This document shows, piece by piece, positions 14,624 to 54,035 of a DNA stretch of 64,000 bases. A program made the translations under genes and the position numbers. Each line of letters starts with the position of its first letter. The stretch's first letter is position 1. The notes under the pieces were generated by a model. The model saw only the letters and a list, made by a program, of their open reading frames with translations, did not search any database and was not told the DNA's origin. The DNA comes from Marinimicrobium hydrolyticum (GTDB lineage Bacteria; Pseudomonadota; Gammaproteobacteria; Pseudomonadales; Cellvibrionaceae). The stretch covers positions 62,001-126,000 of the forward strand of contig NZ_JAVDDU010000001.1 in assembly GCF_030848505.1 (NCBI RefSeq). The letters run 5' to 3'.

Positions 14624-14964
14624 AATAACTCCGAATGGGGTAGCGCTGGCGCAAAAAGTTGTAGCTTGGAGCGCGAGAGGCTCTAGCAGTTCCCTCCCAT
14701 CTAAGGGCCTTTGAGCAGGATACCAGTTCCGGCGCCCCGGAAACTACTGGGACGCGTGGACGCAATTCTGTTTTCGGTGTCGTGGTACAGAACTGGCGTA
14801 TGACACAGTTCTCATTTTAAACCCATACCCCGAGTTGGCGGCGAAAAGTACCCCCAGTGCTCGTGCCGTTGCAGTGGATGCCACCGGGGGGCTCTGGCAA
14901 AATGGGCGTTCGAGGCGTCGCGCGCCAGAAGGATGTTTACAATAAAACGAAAGAAGGAGTACCC
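14624..14964. other. Divergent intergenic region
   Basis: About 340 bases between the transglycosylase and the 706-residue gene. It holds short imperfect inverted repeats (CCAGTTCCGG with CCGGAAAC near 14723-14748; AGAACTG with CAGTTCT near 14790-14812) but no gene and no clear promoter pair. TACAAT at 14938-14943 is a weak possible -10 for the rightward gene. Confidence 0.35.
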
Positions 14965-17085
14965 ATGAAGTCTCAGTGGACCATCGGCCTCGTGGCCGCA
15001 GTAGCCGTATTGGTGACCGCGACCGTAATCGCCCGTTATTGGCCCGAGGTTCCTGAGCGGACCGAACGGGAAGCCGGCCCGGTAAGCTTTCTCGGGCAAA
15101 TTCCCGCCGACAGCCCTTTTGTGATTGTGGGTAGAAACACTTCCGAAGGTGTGCCAGAAGATTGGAATCCAGGGCAGTACAATATCGGTTCGCATGAGCT
15201 AGAGCCGTTATTGGATCAGATGCGTAATACCGAACATCCGTCCTTACCTTTATTGCTGTGGTTATTGGAAGACTTCTTGGCGGCGGGTGAGGAACGTGGT
15301 TATCACGGCATGTTAGAGCATTATGGATTCAACCCCGAGGCTGCCTTTGCACTCTACTGGCACGGCGCCATGCCGGTGTTCCGGCTGGAGCTGAATGACG
15401 GCGCCGCCCTGAACGCGGTTTTGGATCGCGCCGAGGCGGAGGCGGATTTCCAGTATCCACAAACCACGGTAGGCGATGTGTCTGTGCGGACTTGGCCGTT
15501 GTTGAGTGAAAATACTCACCCGAATGTTCCGGCTCTGCAACTGGGCATAGTGGTCGAGCCGCAGCAACTGACGCTTTCCTTGCTTACCGATCGAGACGCC
15601 GACGCCAATCGTTTGCAGCGCTTCGCTCGCCAGTCCATCTCCGAGTCTCTCGCCGATACCGACTTCCAAGAAAACTGGGGGGCAGAGTTTGGGCGCAGCG
15701 ATCTGTTACTGGGATTTGTGGATTACTATCGTCTGGCGCAAGCGCTGCTGTTGCCCGAGCAAAATCGTACCGGGCGGGAATTGCTGACGCTGTTTCCGGA
15801 CTACGAAGGAAAACTGAAGGAAAAATTTTCACCCGCTTGCCGGCAAGAATACGTGCAGTTAACCCAAGGAGCGCCGCGTCAGGTATTTGGAAACACCGAT
15901 TATGCGTTCAGCGAACAACAGATTCGCATGGGCTTGCGTTCGGTTTTACGCATTGAAAATACCGAAGTGCGCGATCAACTCCAGCGCCTGCCCGGCTTTT
16001 TGCCGGAGTACAGTCGGCATGTGGACGATAAGCTGTTCACCGCAGCGATGGGTATTACCATGGACGAGCTGGTGCCAACCTTGAGCGCCCTCTGGCGCCA
16101 GCTTGTCAACGCGCCGTATGAGTGTGATTCCTTGCAAGCCATGCAGCGGCAACTGAATCGGGCCAACCCCATGATGATGGGCATGTTTACCGCCATGGCC
16201 AGTGGGCTCCAGGGTGTTGGCCTGGCGGTTTACGATGTACACGCCGATCCGGACAGCGAAGCCGGGCTTGATGGTGATGCGCTGCTCTCCTTCAGCGCCA
16301 AAGATCCCGAAAGCTTAGTTTCTTTATTGACCTCCTACGCCCCCGGTTTGACTGGCCAACGGGTGCCGACGGACGGTACGCCCGTTGCGTTCACGCCGCC
16401 GTTTACGAGCGAACAGCTCTACATCGCCATCAAGAGCCAGCACATCGTAATCTACCGCGGTGAACGGGCCACTGAAGCCGCCAACGCCATGGACGGAGAG
16501 GCACTGGCAAAACACGGTCTCACAGCTTTCGGTCTTAACCTTGAGCGTGCCGGCGATGTTTTACTCAGTTCACCGGAAACCATGGCCGCTGTTTTCCCGG
16601 AAAATTGCGAGCAGAGCTATCTGGGCTTATTGCAAATGAGCGGCTCACTCTCGGACTGGCACTACAGCGAAACAATGAACGAGCTGGGGTGGGACGCGCA
16701 CTTTAAAATGGGTGTATCTCTCGCCGCCATTGAAGCCGACCAACTGCCCGGCGACTACCAAGTGTCGGCACTCCATGATAATGACTGTAGCTGGGAGGTG
16801 CTCGGCTCCGATAGCAAACAAGAAGACGGTAGCGGAAAGTTTACCTTTTCCGACGAGCAAGAGGGCTGTAACCTGTTTGAAACAGAGTATGATTGGCAGT
16901 TGCAAGGTAGCCAAGTGGTGCAGGTAACGCGGGCGCTACGCGAGAGAGAAACCTGTAGCGACGACTGGAAAGAACCTGATGCCGATGGATTTGCCTGCAG
17001 TATTCTACGCATGGACGATACGGGTTTTTACTGCCTATGGCAGGAAGAAACCGATATGGCGATTTATCGTTACCAGCGGCAGTAG
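14965..17085 (+). CDS. Membrane-anchored envelope protein of unknown function
   Basis: I do not recognise a firm family. The start is the ATG at 14965, which has AAGGAG five bases upstream; the frame is open further upstream but without a ribosome-binding site. The 706-residue product has one N-terminal membrane helix (WTIGLVAAVAVLVTATVIA), and the remainder is predicted to be periplasmic and acidic. The opening PADSPFVIVGRN is reminiscent of DUF3352-like proteins, which I regard as a weak hint only. Five or more cysteines cluster near the C-terminus (from residue about 610), suggesting disulphides. It is monocistronic and ends at a bidirectional terminator. Confidence 0.8.
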   Translation: MKSQWTIGLVAAVAVLVTATVIARYWPEVPERTEREAGPVSFLGQIPADSPFVIVGRNTSEGVPEDWNPGQYNIGSHELEPLLDQMRNTEHPSLPLLLWLLEDFLAAGEERGYHGMLEHYGFNPEAAFALYWHGAMPVFRLELNDGAALNAVLDRAEAEADFQYPQTTVGDVSVRTWPLLSENTHPNVPALQLGIVVEPQQLTLSLLTDRDADANRLQRFARQSISESLADTDFQENWGAEFGRSDLLLGFVDYYRLAQALLLPEQNRTGRELLTLFPDYEGKLKEKFSPACRQEYVQLTQGAPRQVFGNTDYAFSEQQIRMGLRSVLRIENTEVRDQLQRLPGFLPEYSRHVDDKLFTAAMGITMDELVPTLSALWRQLVNAPYECDSLQAMQRQLNRANPMMMGMFTAMASGLQGVGLAVYDVHADPDSEAGLDGDALLSFSAKDPESLVSLLTSYAPGLTGQRVPTDGTPVAFTPPFTSEQLYIAIKSQHIVIYRGERATEAANAMDGEALAKHGLTAFGLNLERAGDVLLSSPETMAAVFPENCEQSYLGLLQMSGSLSDWHYSETMNELGWDAHFKMGVSLAAIEADQLPGDYQVSALHDNDCSWEVLGSDSKQEDGSGKFTFSDEQEGCNLFETEYDWQLQGSQVVQVTRALRERETCSDDWKEPDADGFACSILRMDDTGFYCLWQEETDMAIYRYQRQ

Positions 17086-17102: not shown

Positions 17103-17127
17103 AAAAGAGGTGCACTGCACCTCTTTT
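17103..17127. terminator. Bidirectional rho-independent terminator
   Basis: An inverted repeat (17103-17114 with 17116-17127) has A on its left arm and T on its right arm, so it ends both the rightward 706-residue gene and the leftward cysteine-rich operon. The innermost bases must open to form the loop. Confidence 0.85.
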
Positions 17128-17207: not shown

Positions 17208-17486
17208 TTATTCCGAAAGAAGCTGGCCATCGGAGTGCTTCTTCTCATTAATCGGAGCGGCGGTATCTCCAGCTTCCAGTGGCCTGCCACGATTTCTAGC
17301 GTTGGCCTCGCTAACGACAACGCCTTTACTACTGTTTTCGGCGACCCCGTTCTTGCTGGCGATGTTAATTTTGCTTATGGTAGGGGTCTTTTCGTCATCC
17401 GCGTTATTTTCCTCATCGGCGTTCGCCGATATCGTTACTGAAGCGAGAAAAACTAAAACGAAAAGTTTCATTGCTATGGCTTTCAT
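17208..17486 (-). CDS. Small exported acidic protein, third gene of the cysteine-rich operon
   Basis: No family recognised. The 92 residues begin with a signal peptide (MKAIAMKLFVLVFLASVTISANA), followed by an acidic, low-complexity mature part without cysteine, probably disordered. The start ATG at 17486 has AGGAGG four bases upstream; the ATG five codons later lies too far from it. It comes 31 bases after the DsbA-like gene on the same strand, so it is probably co-transcribed with it and with the cysteine-rich repeat protein. Its role could be that of an accessory or a peptide released to the periplasm; nothing in the sequence decides this. Confidence 0.7.
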   Translation of the reverse strand: MKAIAMKLFVLVFLASVTISANADEENNADDEKTPTISKINIASKNGVAENSSKGVVVSEANARNRGRPLEAGDTAAPINEKKHSDGQLLSE

Positions 17487-17517
17487 AAAACCTCCTCGAC
17501 ATTATTGAAATAAACGT

Positions 17518-18246
17518 TTATTCGACCTGTCCAATCAAGGAGCGCAGGTCATTAATACTCATGGCGCCCATCCTAAAAATGGCCTTTCCGTTTGATGCAT
17601 TGTATATAACGGTTGTTGGAGTTCCTTGAATCCCCAGTGAACGGCCCTCTCGTATATCTCTCTCGATTCTCGACGATATCTTCTGTGAATATAGGCATGA
17701 GTCGTATGTCGGCTTGTCTACGTTCAGGGACGAAAGAAGATCAGAAACAACGGACTCGTTTAGTGGTGCTTCATCCAAGTAGATCTTGTCGAAAAAGGCG
17801 AAAAAGCCCTTACTGTCTTTCTGTTCTGCAATGCACTCAGGTACTTTGGCCCATTGTGCAGAAGGGGACTGATCATTCAGCGGAAAGTGACGTAAACTCC
17901 AGCTCACAGAGCCTTCGCTTTCATCAATAGCTCTCTTTGCAACACTGTAGAACTGTCTGCAAAATGAGCACTGTACATCGAAATACGAAATTAGCTTTAT
18001 GGGGGATTCGCTATTTCCATAAACGCGATCTGTTTGATCGGGTTCTCTCACCTTTTCAATCAGCTCTGCCCCTTCAAGAAAGGTCGGCGGCTGATTAATG
18101 GGCGCAGCCGCCGTTTTTACACTAACCGGCTCTGCGCTCCCGTTAGCGCCACTAGAGGTGTTTAGTCGCTCACCCGTATACACTATCGCGAGCCCAATAA
18201 TCACGGCATGGATTATCGCTCCCCAAAAAAAGCGCCAACTTTCCAT
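17518..18246 (-). CDS. Membrane-anchored DsbA-like thiol-disulphide oxidoreductase
   Basis: The protein has a thioredoxin fold of the DsbA/Thioredoxin_4 type and probably makes or isomerises disulphides in exported proteins. In its 242 residues I see an N-terminal membrane helix (residues about 7-24), a variable linker to about residue 75, the redox motif Cys93-Ser-Phe-Cys96 after SYFDVQ, and the cis-proline loop QGTP (Pro210). There are two further cysteines at 138 and 184. The start ATG 18246 has GGAG five bases upstream. It lies 33 bases after the 56-cysteine repeat protein on the same strand; that protein is the obvious candidate substrate, which is an inference from position. Confidence 0.87.
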   Translation of the reverse strand: MESWRFFWGAIIHAVIIGLAIVYTGERLNTSSGANGSAEPVSVKTAAAPINQPPTFLEGAELIEKVREPDQTDRVYGNSESPIKLISYFDVQCSFCRQFYSVAKRAIDESEGSVSWSLRHFPLNDQSPSAQWAKVPECIAEQKDSKGFFAFFDKIYLDEAPLNESVVSDLLSSLNVDKPTYDSCLYSQKISSRIERDIREGRSLGIQGTPTTVIYNASNGKAIFRMGAMSINDLRSLIGQVE

Positions 18247-18279
18247 ATAATCTCCGATAATTGTTAGTAAATTGTATTG

Positions 18280-19806
18280 CTACAGGGTAAAGGATTTCAC
18301 TTTTCGAAAATTCCGCATTAGCGCGATAAGTAGCATAAACAAATAGACACTTCCCCCTGCAATGCCGCCACCGGATGAACTGCTTTCGCTACCTCCACCA
18401 CTAGATGAGCCGCCGCTGCTTCCACCACTAGACGAGCCGCCGCTGCCTCCTGTGCAGGCCGAGCTCGACGAACAATAGCCATCGCAGGCATACGAGTTCG
18501 AGCTTTCGCAACAAAGGTTGCTGTTGTTCATGGACTCATAAGGTGCTGCTGACGGACAACTCGAGCAGAACTTACCGGCGGTACAACCATCGCCACTACC
18601 ACTGCCGCCGCCAGTACTGCCACCACCAGTACTGCCACCGCCACCACCAGTGTTACAGCTGCTGCTGGAAGAGCAGAATCTATTGCCCGAGCTGTCTTCA
18701 CAGGCGTACGAATTTGAAGACTCGCAACAAAGGGTGCTGTTGTTCATAGATTGATAGGGGGTAGACGACGGGCAACTTGAGCAAAAGCTACCAGCGGAAC
18801 AGCCATCACTGGCACCGCCTCCGCCACCGCCAGTGCTGCAGGTGCTGCTGGATGAGCAGAATCTGTTGCCATTGCTGTCTTGGCAGGCATAGGAGTTCGA
18901 TGACTCGCAGCACAAGCTGCTGTTGTTCACGGACTGATAGGGCGTGGATGAGGGGCAGCTCGAGCAGTAGCTTCCAGCCGAGCAGCTGCCGCCGCCACCG
19001 CCGCCACCGCCAGTGCTGCAAGTACTGCTGGATGAGCAGAATCTGTTGCCACTGCTGTCTTGGCAGGCATAGGAGTTCGATGACTCGCAGCACAAGCTGC
19101 TGTTGTTCACGGACTGATAGGGTGTCGACGAGGGGCAGCTCGAGCAGTAGCTTCCAGCCGAGCAGCTGCCGCCACCACCACCGCCGCCGCCAGTGCTGCA
19201 AGTGCTGCTGGATGAGCAGAATCTGTTGCCACTACTGTCCTGACACGCATAGGAGTTCGATGACTCGCAGCACAAGCTGCTGTTGTTCACGGACTGATAG
19301 GGTGTGGACGAGGGGCAGCTCGAGCAGTAGCTTCCAGCCGAGCAGCTCCCGCCGCCGCCACCACCGCCGCCGCCGCCAGTGCTGCAAGTGCTGCTGGATG
19401 AGCAGAATCTGTTGCCACTGCTGTCCTGACACGCATAGGAGTTCGATGACTCGCAGCACAAGCTGCTATTGTTCATGGACTGATAGGGTGTCGACGAGGG
19501 GCAGCTCGAGCAGTAGCTTCCAGCCGAGCAACTGCCGCCACCACCGCCCCCGCCAGTACTGCAGGTACTGCTGCTTGAGCAGAATCGATTGCCGCTACTG
19601 TCCTGACAGGCATAGGAGTTCGCTGACTGGCAACATAATCCACTGTTGTTCATTGATTGATAGGGTGTGGAAGACGGACAGCTCGAGCAGTAGCTCCCGC
19701 TAGTACAAGAAGCATTGGCCATGTTGGAAAGCAACGCGGCAAGGGCGATGGCAATGTAGACAAGCCACAGCCTTGGATCAGACAAAGTACGTTTATTATT
19801 GGGCAT
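18280..19806 (-). CDS. Secreted surface protein with seven eight-cysteine repeats and a GlyGly-CTERM-like tail
   Basis: I know no described family with this repeat. The start ATG at 19806 has AAGGAG nine bases upstream; a TTG nine codons earlier is not preferred. The 508 residues consist of a signal peptide (to about Ala32) and seven units (34-92, 93-154, 155-214, 215-274, 275-335, 336-407, 408-451). Each unit follows C-x5-C-x2-C-x14-CC-x7-C-x8-C-x5-C (x3 for x8 in the last), 56 cysteines in all, and ends in a poly-Gly linker. A Ser/Gly-rich stalk follows, then a C-terminal Gly-Gly, hydrophobic stretch and basic end (GGSVYLFMLLIALMRNFRK). That end resembles GlyGly-CTERM sorting signals cut by rhombosortase. 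It leads the operon with the DsbA-like gene. Confidence 0.88.
   Translation of the reverse strand: MPNNKRTLSDPRLWLVYIAIALAALLSNMANASCTSGSYCSSCPSSTPYQSMNNSGLCCQSANSYACQDSSGNRFCSSSSTCSTGGGGGGGSCSAGSYCSSCPSSTPYQSMNNSSLCCESSNSYACQDSSGNRFCSSSSTCSTGGGGGGGGGGSCSAGSYCSSCPSSTPYQSVNNSSLCCESSNSYACQDSSGNRFCSSSSTCSTGGGGGGGGSCSAGSYCSSCPSSTPYQSVNNSSLCCESSNSYACQDSSGNRFCSSSSTCSTGGGGGGGGSCSAGSYCSSCPSSTPYQSVNNSSLCCESSNSYACQDSNGNRFCSSSSTCSTGGGGGGASDGCSAGSFCSSCPSSTPYQSMNNSTLCCESSNSYACEDSSGNRFCSSSSSCNTGGGGGSTGGGSTGGGSGSGDGCTAGKFCSSCPSAAPYESMNNSNLCCESSNSYACDGYCSSSSACTGGSGGSSSGGSSGGSSSGGGSESSSSGGGIAGGSVYLFMLLIALMRNFRKVKSFTL
18454..19707 (-). repeat. Tandem 180-186 base coding repeats (seven units)
   Basis: The seven protein units correspond to 19531-19707, 19345-19530, 19165-19344, 18985-19164, 18802-18984, 18586-18801 and 18454-18585. 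Units two to five are nearly identical at the DNA level and spaced by 180-186 bases, so they arose recently by unequal exchange or slippage; the outer units are diverged. Most length differences lie in the glycine linkers. Confidence 0.9.
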
Positions 19807-20307
19807 GGCACAAGGCTCCTTCAATCTAGACAAACCCGTCGCTGTTATATGAAAAGGGGCTCCACTAGTGCTCTCAGATGGTCGGAACTAGGTGGGAAGC
19901 CGGACTTGCCCTCATGCAGGGGGGGAGCCTTGCAGAAGGGCGGGTACAGGGAACCATTCGGACTTTAGCTCACAATCCTTGCGGATAAATCACCCAAATG
20001 GGGTATTTTTATGCCAAGCGGTGAAAATAGTTGGTGGGAAATGGGCCAAAATTCTCCTTTTGCGCTCCGGTGGAACGCCTTTGGCCCGTAAACGCTGTGT
20101 TACTTTGGGGAGGATGGCCCTAGAAGCTCGGGTGTATCACCGTGTATTCAGTGGAAAACGGGGGGAGTGGGGGCGCTGAGGCGATGGAGGGGGAGGCACT
20201 GACCCGCAGCGGAGTCACTACCCTATGACGGGTGCGATGCGCCTCTTTCTTGGCGAGCGATTTCAATCTCGTCAGACCCTACCCAATTACTAAGGCAATT
20301 TGTGAGG
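19807..20307. other. About 500 bases without a gene upstream of the cysteine-rich operon
   Basis: This stretch separates the end of the PAS-GGDEF gene from the start of the cysteine-rich operon, both leftward. No open frame in it looks coding. It must hold the operon promoter: TATAAC on the minus strand near 19847-19852 is a weak -10 without a good -35. I looked for a cyclic-di-GMP riboswitch and saw no convincing core. The region is unusually rich in short G and C runs. Confidence 0.4.
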
Positions 20308-43204: not shown

Positions 43205-45694
43205 TCAGTCGCGCTGAAGCACCGCGGAAGCTGAAGCCCTCCAGTTCTTTCGGGGGCGGCCAATAATGGCGAGTGCAAGTAAAAGCAGTAAACTTGATCC
43301 AAAAAATCCACCGCCTGAGCTACCAGAGCTCTCGTCAGAGGGAATCAACGGGGGGCCGCCCTCTACAGGAGCAGCGACAGATTCATCGTACTCCTCCATT
43401 GTGTGCCGTTCGTCATCCTCAATATTGACCGTGGCTGTATTGCTGCTGGCTATGCCAGCGCCTGTGCTTGCATAAAGCCTTACTTGAAATTCGATTCTTC
43501 CGTAGTACCAAGGGTCATCAATTAATTCAATCTCAACTTCGATGCCCGCCTCGCCATCTGGGATCACGTAACTCTGGTTTACGGGAACGTAGTCCAGATA
43601 TGGTTCTGCGGGCGGGTTGCCTCCCACCCACTCCCCATCCTCTAAATGACTGACAAAACCGTATTGGGTCGCGAGTTTAAATTCAACGTCGCCGCTCAAG
43701 TCTTCCCCGGAGCGCTGGATGTAAATGCTTGCTGCGCCGCTGTCTTCCTCAGCGTAGTATTCGTCTTGTGAGAAACTCAACGTGTTGTTGAATGCGGGCG
43801 AGAAAGGGTTCACGCCGGCTTCGATATCCGCCATGTTTGCGGTGCCGTTGCCGTTGTAATCTTGAGCATCGTCGGAGCTATCGCAGGGCTCGGGACGCTG
43901 AAATTCCGTTACATCAAAATCGTCGTCGAAGACTTCGCCTGGAACAAATAAATGGGCTTCCAGTAAGTATCGCTTCTGCCAGCACAGAATTGAATCGTTG
44001 CCTTCCAGTCTGTATTGCAGTGCGATGCCTCGCCGTTCTAGGCTTTCCAGCAAAGATTCTATATTGTGGAGCTGGTTGTCGCGCAGATCGAACTTAATGT
44101 TGGTGCGCTGATCAAGCTGTTCTTCCAAGGGTGAAAAGTCGGGAAGCTGAGCAATCTGATTGCCGACCAGTTGCATTTTGCTGATCGAAGGAAGGTGCAC
44201 CAGCGATGAAATATCGGTGATGTAGTTGTGATTCAAATTTAAGACTTCAAGGTCTTGCAATGGAGGGAAGTCGGACAGGTCACTCAACAAATTGTTGCTG
44301 AGATCCACCCGCTGCAGGTTGGGCAAAAGCTCAAGCCCCGCCAGTGAGGTAAGACCTTTATTGCGACAATCCAGATCGTAAATAATAGCCGCATACTTAG
44401 ACTTACCGTCGCGTACACACTGCGCCAGAGCCATGTGGCCGTGCGCCTCCAATGTATCGGCCGCGAGCGTGAGGTCAGGACTGGATACGTAGGTCTCAGC
44501 GACTTCAAAGCGCACCGCATTGAGCGCATAAACGGCGTCCGCGCCATTCTTGTACTCCTTGGGCACACCCAGAGGAGTGCCATCATCGCTCTCCCCGAGA
44601 GACTGCGAGTAACGACCGAGCGAGCGCGTGTAGTAGGACATGATGGTGCCCGCACCATCAGCGTGTAAATGCCCGAGTGCAAACGGAAAGCTCGCGCCAA
44701 CTTCGCCTTGTCGGCGCGAGTGCGTCAACCCCAAAGCGTGGCCAAGTTCGTGGGCGAATAGGGTGTCTGGCTCTCCCGCCTGTCTTAGCGCAACGGCGAT
44801 GTAACGAGTGTGTTCACAGCCTGTAACAGAACCGTTCCAACCGCATAAGTATGAGCCGCCGCCGCCGGTCTCGCTCAGATAAGCGACCACGGCGGCGCGG
44901 TGCTCATGGCGTAGATTGTGAATATCGCCAAACCACGGAGGTTGAGCCTTGCTGATTCTGGACAAAAGCGTAGAGTTACTCTCGCCCTCAGGGTGGTCAA
45001 TTTCCACAGTGTGAACAAAGTTCACCCTTATAAACACGCCGCTGGCTTCCAAATAGTGATTGGTTACCGCTTTGATTTGCGCTATGCGCGTGTTTATATT
45101 GCCCCCGTAGTTGTCCGCCGCCGTTTTCGAGTAGGCGATCAGAACATTCAATTCCACAACCTCTTCATCGTAAATGGCAGGGCTCAGGTCAGCCTTGGCA
45201 ACACCTCTGCCCGGTTCAGCCTTGGCAGCAACTCTGCGTGCTTGATTCCGGGGTTGGGCGACAATCAACGTTTCCGCTTCAGCGCCGTGTTCCAATTTGG
45301 GGCTGCGCATTGCGCCGAGCTTACCGTCCGCCTCCAGCTTATAAGTCGTATTCGCGTATTCAATATGAGCGAAGATTTGAGACTCATCAAAACTCAGAAT
45401 CAGCGCACCCGCTTTGGCCGAACCTGTCAGGTCGGCCCTAAGGGTAACGCTTCCATTCGGATTCACACTCCGTTCGCGCAAAAGCGCCTCGACCCTATCG
45501 TGACCGGGTAATGACAAGGGGACAGCCTTTCCGACTTGCCAGTTGTGCAGCTGCTCACGGTCGAAGGTCAGTAACTGTGCGGAATCGATCGGCTGATTAG
45601 AAACGCTGGGCTCAAGAGTCCACAAACCGCCAGCATGGGCGGGCGCAACGATGGCAAAGAGGATAAGAAAGGCAAAAATGAAATGGCGCAGCAC
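43205..45694 (-). CDS. Secreted zinc metalloprotease with leucine-rich repeats, Calx-beta domain and GlyGly-CTERM
   Basis: An 829-residue exported protease. It has a signal peptide (to AHA, residue 21), a propeptide-like part (22-180) and a metzincin domain with HELGHALGLTH (315-325: His315, Glu316, His319, His325) and a Met-turn (GTIMSYY, about 351). A leucine-rich repeat part (about 445-560, LQRVDLSNNLLSDL), a Calx-beta-like domain (about 655-755) and a C-terminal GlyGly-CTERM-like tail (GGGFFGSSLLLLLALAI then basic) follow. It should be secreted by the type II system, trimmed by rhombosortase and held at the surface. The LRR insert in such a protease is unusual. Confidence 0.9.
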   Translation of the reverse strand: MLRHFIFAFLILFAIVAPAHAGGLWTLEPSVSNQPIDSAQLLTFDREQLHNWQVGKAVPLSLPGHDRVEALLRERSVNPNGSVTLRADLTGSAKAGALILSFDESQIFAHIEYANTTYKLEADGKLGAMRSPKLEHGAEAETLIVAQPRNQARRVAAKAEPGRGVAKADLSPAIYDEEVVELNVLIAYSKTAADNYGGNINTRIAQIKAVTNHYLEASGVFIRVNFVHTVEIDHPEGESNSTLLSRISKAQPPWFGDIHNLRHEHRAAVVAYLSETGGGGSYLCGWNGSVTGCEHTRYIAVALRQAGEPDTLFAHELGHALGLTHSRRQGEVGASFPFALGHLHADGAGTIMSYYTRSLGRYSQSLGESDDGTPLGVPKEYKNGADAVYALNAVRFEVAETYVSSPDLTLAADTLEAHGHMALAQCVRDGKSKYAAIIYDLDCRNKGLTSLAGLELLPNLQRVDLSNNLLSDLSDFPPLQDLEVLNLNHNYITDISSLVHLPSISKMQLVGNQIAQLPDFSPLEEQLDQRTNIKFDLRDNQLHNIESLLESLERRGIALQYRLEGNDSILCWQKRYLLEAHLFVPGEVFDDDFDVTEFQRPEPCDSSDDAQDYNGNGTANMADIEAGVNPFSPAFNNTLSFSQDEYYAEEDSGAASIYIQRSGEDLSGDVEFKLATQYGFVSHLEDGEWVGGNPPAEPYLDYVPVNQSYVIPDGEAGIEVEIELIDDPWYYGRIEFQVRLYASTGAGIASSNTATVNIEDDERHTMEEYDESVAAPVEGGPPLIPSDESSGSSGGGFFGSSLLLLLALAIIGRPRKNWRASASAVLQRD

Positions 45695-53384: not shown

Positions 53385-54035
53385 ATGAAGCATCTACATA
53401 TCGACATCGTTTCCGACGTCGCCTGCCCTTGGTGCGCCATTGGCTACGCCCGGCTGGATCAGGCGAAACGGTCTCTGGCAGGGGAGATTGAATTTACTGA
53501 ACACTGGCGCGCCTTCGAGCTGAACCCGGACGACCAGGCCGAGCCCGAGCCCATTCTGCCGGCGCTGGCGCGCAAGTACGGCCGCTCGGGGTCGGAAATT
53601 CAGGCCTCCCAGGCGGACATGATGGCCATCGCCAAGTCCCTGGGAATCAACTTTGACAAAATGCAGGAGCGCTATACCTGCAATACCTTCGATGCCCACC
53701 GGTTGCTCAAGTGGGCCGCCACTCAAGATAAAGCCACTTTTTTGCAAAAAGCGCTCTTTGAAGCCTATTTCGGGCGAGCGGAAGATGTGTCCAAGACGGG
53801 TGTGTTGCTCGGTTGCGCCGAAGCCGCGGGGCTGGATTCAGCCGAGGCGCAGCGTATTCTGGAAAGCGACGACTTTGGCCAGGCCGTTATCGACGAAGAG
53901 CACGCTTACCAGCGCGCGGGTGTAACGGCTGTACCGGGTTTTATCGTCAACGAGAAGTATTTGATTTCCGGCGCTCAGGACACTGACACTTTGGTGGAGG
54001 CTTTTCGGAATATTGCTCGGGAGCAGGATGAGTAG
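53385..54035 (+). CDS. FrnE-like DsbA-family oxidoreductase
   Basis: The 216-residue protein belongs to the cytoplasmic DsbA-like group related to FrnE and 2-hydroxychromene-2-carboxylate isomerase. The redox site is Cys14-Pro-Trp-Cys17 (DVACPWCAIG). The helical insert follows, and a cis-proline loop is seen in TAVPGFIVN. No signal peptide is present. FrnE of Deinococcus acts in oxidative-stress resistance; whether that holds here is unknown. CGGAG lies eight bases before the ATG at 53385. It is divergent from fic and convergent with the EF-G gene. Confidence 0.9.
   Translation: MKHLHIDIVSDVACPWCAIGYARLDQAKRSLAGEIEFTEHWRAFELNPDDQAEPEPILPALARKYGRSGSEIQASQADMMAIAKSLGINFDKMQERYTCNTFDAHRLLKWAATQDKATFLQKALFEAYFGRAEDVSKTGVLLGCAEAAGLDSAEAQRILESDDFGQAVIDEEHAYQRAGVTAVPGFIVNEKYLISGAQDTDTLVEAFRNIAREQDE

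Follow-up and report, generated by a model that had tools for sequence, protein, structure and literature searches.

BcfH is encoded in the bcf fimbrial cluster of Salmonella. TrbB of the F-plasmid T4SS is an operon-borne disulphide enzyme (PMC11315126), and removal of the N-terminal trimerisation part of Proteus ScsC turns the isomerase into an oxidase (PMC5524982). On the side of secretion, GlyGly-CTERM proteins, the signal of which is laid out as Gly/Ser-GG, a hydrophobic stretch and a basic end (PMC3237569, PMC6219818), are cleaved by rhombosortase ahead of transport by the type II secretion system (T2SS) and surface display (PMC6219818, PMC13393428). In Vibrio cholerae the cut falls after the first Gly of the GG and the new end receives a glycerophosphoethanolamine-containing group, upon which the T2SS delivers the protein to the surface (PMC6219818); the T2SS transports fully folded proteins (PMC7949064).

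The locus described here is situated in a window of 64,000 nt of Marinimicrobium hydrolyticum (GCF_030848505.1, contig NZ_JAVDDU010000001.1, 62,001-126,000 of the forward strand), the whole stretch of DNA that was analysed, and could, with the case evenly balanced, be read as an operon for the secretion and folding of a surface protein built like beads on a string. Three genes, all on the - strand, are separated by 33 and 31 bases, whereby the open reading frame coordinates confirm the three leftward genes and gaps given in the initial annotation. Gene 1 (18280-19806) encodes the 508-aa exported Cys-repeat protein P0001, gene 2 (17518-18246) the membrane-anchored DsbA/Thioredoxin_4 protein P0002 and gene 3 (17208-17486), an open reading frame with a strong ribosome-binding site, the 92-aa polar protein P0003, the signal peptide of which agrees with the small exported third protein proposed before. 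A plausible ribosome-binding site precedes each of the three genes, and one terminator with an 11-bp stem (17103-17127, no strand assigned), common to the operon and to a convergent + strand gene (14857-17085), closes the operon downstream of gene 3. Judged by gene spacing, co-transcription of the repeat gene and the DsbA-fold gene is supported. The 500-base region upstream of the operon (19807-20307) contains neither an Rfam match above chance, regulatory RNA having been sought, nor a convincing sigma-70 promoter. Pfam and NCBIfam profile searches assigned gene 3 to no confident family, and its similarity to the gene of a small exported protein that precedes the Colwellia unit discussed below did not exceed that of shuffles.

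Gene 1 starts with ATG, 9 nt downstream of AAGGAG, and the first repeat unit begins directly after the signal peptide ending in ...NMANA. P0001 contains 56 Cys (7 x 8), 150 Ser and 85 Gly, no His and few charged residues. The repeat unit of about 53 (roughly 50) residues, such as SCSAGSYCSSCPSSTPYQSMNNSSLCCESSNSYACQDSSGNRFCSSSSTCSTG, occurs as unit 1 (19552-19710), unit 2 (19375-19533), unit 3 (19189-19347), unit 4 (19009-19167), unit 5 (18829-18987), unit 6 (18646-18804) and unit 7 (18445-18588), all on the - strand, with runs of 5-10 Gly or Gly/Ser as linkers. Of the earlier description as seven eight-Cys units of fixed spacing joined by poly-Gly, the unit number, the 56 Cys and the linkers stand; the spacing C-x5-C-x2-C-x14-CC-x7-C-x8-C-x5-C is exact in six units, and unit 7, shorter by 5 residues, departs from it with C-x3-C in place of C-x8-C (Cys6 to Cys7). 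The units are very probably disulphide-bonded. AlphaFold2 on the repeat unit (8 sequences) reached a pLDDT of only 58 and placed a hairpin around Cys6-Cys7; Foldseek with this model of pLDDT 58 returned no match.

P0001 is almost certainly a real, selected and exported protein. Units 2-5, 93-97 % identical among themselves at the DNA level, appear to be recent copies or products of gene conversion, and units 1, 6 and 7 share only 65-80 % DNA identity with the remaining units. Unit 1 differs from units 2, 3 and 5 at a silent rate of 1.4-2.2 per site and a replacement rate of about 0.1, and its silent differences to unit 6 are beyond saturation. Where computable, dN/dS between diverged units is about 0.04-0.07, with silent sites close to saturation or past it, and 56 of 56 Cys are retained. 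Such conservation of the protein sequence between diverged units, at saturating silent sites, is what a functional protein read in the frame of gene 1 would give, and places P0001 under selection. This dN/dS pattern dismisses a long + strand frame over the repeats (18777-19703) as a by-product of the repeat; that gene 1 itself is a spurious frame is ruled out by the selection between units, by its signal peptide and by the identically spaced relative. Among frames of at least 150 codons in 400 kb of the same genome, none has a Cys load near that of P0001.

The spacing pattern had been placed outside known families, and single units, profile and whole P0001 indeed gave no match in Pfam, NCBIfam and PDB; with single units no family appeared up to E 10, and the best PDB match (E 1.7, to a 60 kDa protein) is at chance level. 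A scan of 84,980 species genomes found a single relative, which belongs to an uncultured Colwellia metagenome-assembled genome (MAG); as the scan used strict peptide patterns, it may have passed over more distant ones. The relative consists of a signal peptide, a single unit and poly-Gly, the unit possessing the six-Cys core C-x14-CC-x7-C-x8-C-x5-C with identical spacing and lacking the first two Cys. The contig ends after this first unit in a Nextera adapter (L031, 6148-6179), the gene being truncated and its last residues an artefact. When the profile was run against 391 order-level, 369 class-level and 297 Colwellia-family genomes, no further real match came up, and neither pattern scans of viral collections nor tblastn of plasmids and phages found a repeat relative, although low-complexity filtering may hide relatives in BLAST searches. 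Rejected upon inspection were weak matches to the Ser/Gly linker only (L015) and to an antisense frame (L021, L040), and L020 and L022-L024 were set aside as weak and mostly stop-containing or very short. By these searches, the repeat unit would be almost unique among sequenced bacteria.

The C-terminus of P0001, ESSSSGGGIAGGSVYLFMLLIALMRNFRKVKSFTL, passes from a Gly/Ser linker over GG to a short hydrophobic stretch and a basic end (18283-18372, - strand; SSSSGGGIAGG / SVYLFMLLIALM / RNFRKVK), the tripartite layout of a GlyGly-CTERM signal when the tail is read directly. Of the 159 frames of the window, a heuristic for such tails retrieved two, P0001 and a metalloprotease; of 541 frames from 400 kb on another contig it retrieved none. 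The metalloprotease, an exported M12-type protein with leucine-rich repeats and a Calx-beta domain, is weakly Mep72-like and ends in SSGSSGGGFFGSSLLLLLALAIIGRPRKN (43205-45694, - strand). The GlyGly-CTERM model TIGR03501 matched P0001 neither at full length nor with the tail alone; the test is insensitive here since the textbook-looking tail of the metalloprotease, serving as control, fails it too. As the cut-off is not reached, P0001 is called GlyGly-CTERM-like and not a member. A rhombosortase (TIGR03902, 139.9 bits versus a cut-off of 84; motifs GLSGALHG and AHLYG) is encoded at G000:C1:61202-61651, 350 bases outside the left side of the window; it lies some 18 kb from gene 1 and shares the strand of the operon. 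The genome also encodes the type II secretin GspD (TIGR02517, 559 bits versus a cut-off of 351), the sole Gsp gene searched for, from which the presence of type II secretion is read. Tail shape, the rhombosortase and GspD genes and the published VesB pathway together make it reasonably probable that P0001 takes the rhombosortase/T2SS route. The initial annotation had spoken of an undescribed secretion operon and had missed tail, rhombosortase and T2SS, in view of which such a system is unnecessary.

The membrane-anchored CxxC thioredoxin-fold protein announced for gene 2 is borne out by Pfam (PF13462, E 4e-20; PF01323, E 1e-14), residues and structure alike. P0002 comprises a transmembrane helix (residues 2-30), a linker (31-59) and a DsbA fold (60-241) with CSFC at 93-96, TP at 209-210 (Thr before the cis-Pro) and, according to the alignment, a second Cys pair, C138/C184. 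AlphaFold2 (pLDDT 85) predicts a single membrane helix followed by a disordered linker and, with pLDDT mostly above 90, a confidently modelled DsbA fold, and Foldseek retrieves Pseudomonas aeruginosa DsbA2 as best match (4n30, E 9.5e-12), with Wolbachia alpha-DsbA1/2, Salmonella BcfH (7jve) and ScsC proteins as other nearest solved structures. Thioredoxin fold with inserted helical domain, CxxC and cis-Pro loop place P0002 in the DsbA family (PF01323/PF13462). A trimeric isomerase of the Proteus ScsC type is not indicated, the N-terminus being a transmembrane helix and disordered linker and no trimerisation stalk, nor is a copper-linked scs cluster, the operon partners being genes 1 and 3. Since a region comparable to the trimerisation part of ScsC is lacking, P0002 leans more towards an oxidase.

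Whether gene 2 is dedicated to the repeat protein is a separate matter. Its nearest homologues in the class, at 30-37 % identity, adjoin DsbD_N and DsbD_TM/CcdA genes or a redoxin/TlpA-type gene or are without clear partner, and no repeat-pattern protein occurred in the homologue neighbourhoods examined. In two of these (L073, 284-1890; L075, 8954-10551) separate DsbD_N and DsbD_TM beside the homologue amount to a split DsbD-like redox relay. Relatives are also carried by 1,273 plasmids, the majority conjugative; on one (L101, 5815-6732) the gene is three genes away from MobH and TraD, near traA, and is likely a Dsb helper of conjugation. The genome of the Colwellia relative contains no close P0002 ortholog, the best candidate (24 % identity) being a DsbA beside DsbB. 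As the M. hydrolyticum genome encodes at least one other, canonical DsbA (L047), beside a cytochrome c gene, disulphide oxidation is not confined to gene 2. The window additionally harbours a DSBA-superfamily protein without export signal, FrnE-like by eye (about 53400-54005, + strand). The co-occurrence of repeat and DsbA-like gene in many genomes, suggested earlier as a check, is not supported, the only repeat relative belonging to a genome without close ortholog, and cannot be shown because the repeat is nearly unique. It is operon position, and this alone, that speaks for a dedication of gene 2, which by descent is not special to the repeat. Of the proposed private oxidoreductase and dedicated folding, the operon neighbourhood with a Cys-rich exported protein is retained, while the homologues situated elsewhere without the repeat and the other DsbA count against it. 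On balance, gene 2 probably serves gene 1.

The same operon admits a reading as unrelated neighbours: gene 2 would code for a general thiol enzyme and have ended up next to an orphan surface gene, the repeats being folded by the housekeeping DsbA. The wide distribution of its clade in other contexts, the Colwellia relative without close DsbA ortholog and the GC content of genes 2 and 3 (47-49 %, compared with 57 % in the repeat gene and 53-58 % in the neighbours) fit such a chance neighbourhood, but the low GC may merely reflect that genes 2 and 3 are without GC-rich Gly runs, the short gaps, own ribosome-binding sites and single terminator after gene 3 bind the genes together, and a Cys-rich protein is a fitting client for such an enzyme, so that we consider unrelated neighbours rather unlikely. 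A further alternative is an extracellular metal sink, in which gene 2, as an ScsC-like copper-linked thiol protein, would keep the 56 Cys reduced so that these could bind Cu or other soft metals. P0002 does resemble ScsC, which is linked to copper (PMC8900818, PMC5524982), in sequence and fold, and CxxC and CC motifs are metal-capable; however, a conserved spacing of eight Cys separated by long loops is usual in disulphide modules and not in metallothioneins, P0001 is without His, no metal resistance genes were recognised by inspection among the neighbouring frames and the periplasm of the species has a DsbA oxidase, which renders a metal sink improbable.

The tail could also be an ordinary membrane anchor, by which the beads would stay attached to the inner membrane and have a periplasmic role, with the same folding help. 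That it misses the GlyGly-CTERM model agrees with this alternative, and a short hydrophobic stretch with basic end suits a simple stop-transfer anchor as well, but the hydrophobic core spans just some 12-16 residues, a long Gly/Ser linker and GG come before it, few such tails occur in the genome and a rhombosortase is encoded nearby; a plain anchor is thus unlikely.

In the preferred reading, a secretion-and-folding operon, Sec would export P0001 and each bead of about 50 residues would fold separately, locked by four disulphides, with the poly-Gly linkers giving flexibility. P0002, to judge from operon position and enzyme family, would oxidise or proof-read these disulphides close to the inner membrane, in which client (by its tail) and enzyme would both be anchored. 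The GlyGly-CTERM-like tail would retain P0001 in the inner membrane until cleavage by rhombosortase, upon which the T2SS would move the folded flexible chain to the cell surface for display. There it might serve for binding or adhesion, as a module that is multivalent and resistant to proteases, which is a guess and the weakest step; an adhesin or binding role of P0001 is accordingly only a tentative proposal. Equally doubtful is the full combination of a new eight-Cys bead domain as tandem flexible multivalent binder with an operon-borne membrane-anchored disulphide enzyme and rhombosortase plus T2SS display. The preferred reading is weakened by the lack of any relative in which repeat and DsbA gene go together, by a further DsbA in the genome, by a tail that misses TIGR03501 and by the pLDDT of 58 of the unit model. 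If it is true, the small disulphide domains of bacteria would be joined by a new one, and the operon would be a minimal test case for the joint action of rhombosortase, type II secretion and a private Dsb enzyme on one very disulphide-rich client; the poly-Gly bead chain could serve as a surface-display scaffold. The extreme rarity of the repeat limits its general importance.

Compared with known systems, the repeat unit resembles hevein-type chitin-binding domains, WAP domains and knottins in its size of about 45-50 residues, eight Cys and vicinal CC, but differs from them in spacing and shows no detectable sequence match, and membership is not claimed. P0002 shares fold, CxxC and the Thr before cis-Pro with DsbA2, Wolbachia alpha-DsbA1/2, ScsC and BcfH, and its second Cys pair with many of its closest homologues; in contrast to these proteins, an uncleaved N-terminal membrane anchor and disordered linker replace their long N-terminal region, and the partner gene encodes a Cys-repeat protein. 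Like BcfH in bcf and TrbB in the T4SS, it is a thioredoxin-fold enzyme encoded with a presumed Cys-containing extracellular client, but the client here is an unrelated Cys-bead protein and no pilus or T4SS genes are nearby. P0001 is like VesB of Vibrio cholerae and ExeM of Shewanella in its signal peptide, soluble region, Gly/Ser linker and tail of GG, hydrophobic stretch and basic end, and the rhombosortase and GspD genes of GlyGly-CTERM/rhombosortase systems are present in the M. hydrolyticum genome too; whereas the known substrates are mostly enzymes, P0001 is a repeat protein without enzyme domain and with a tail below the model cut-off. The export and folding machinery apparently used by P0001 is therefore of known kinds, and it is the bead module that is new.
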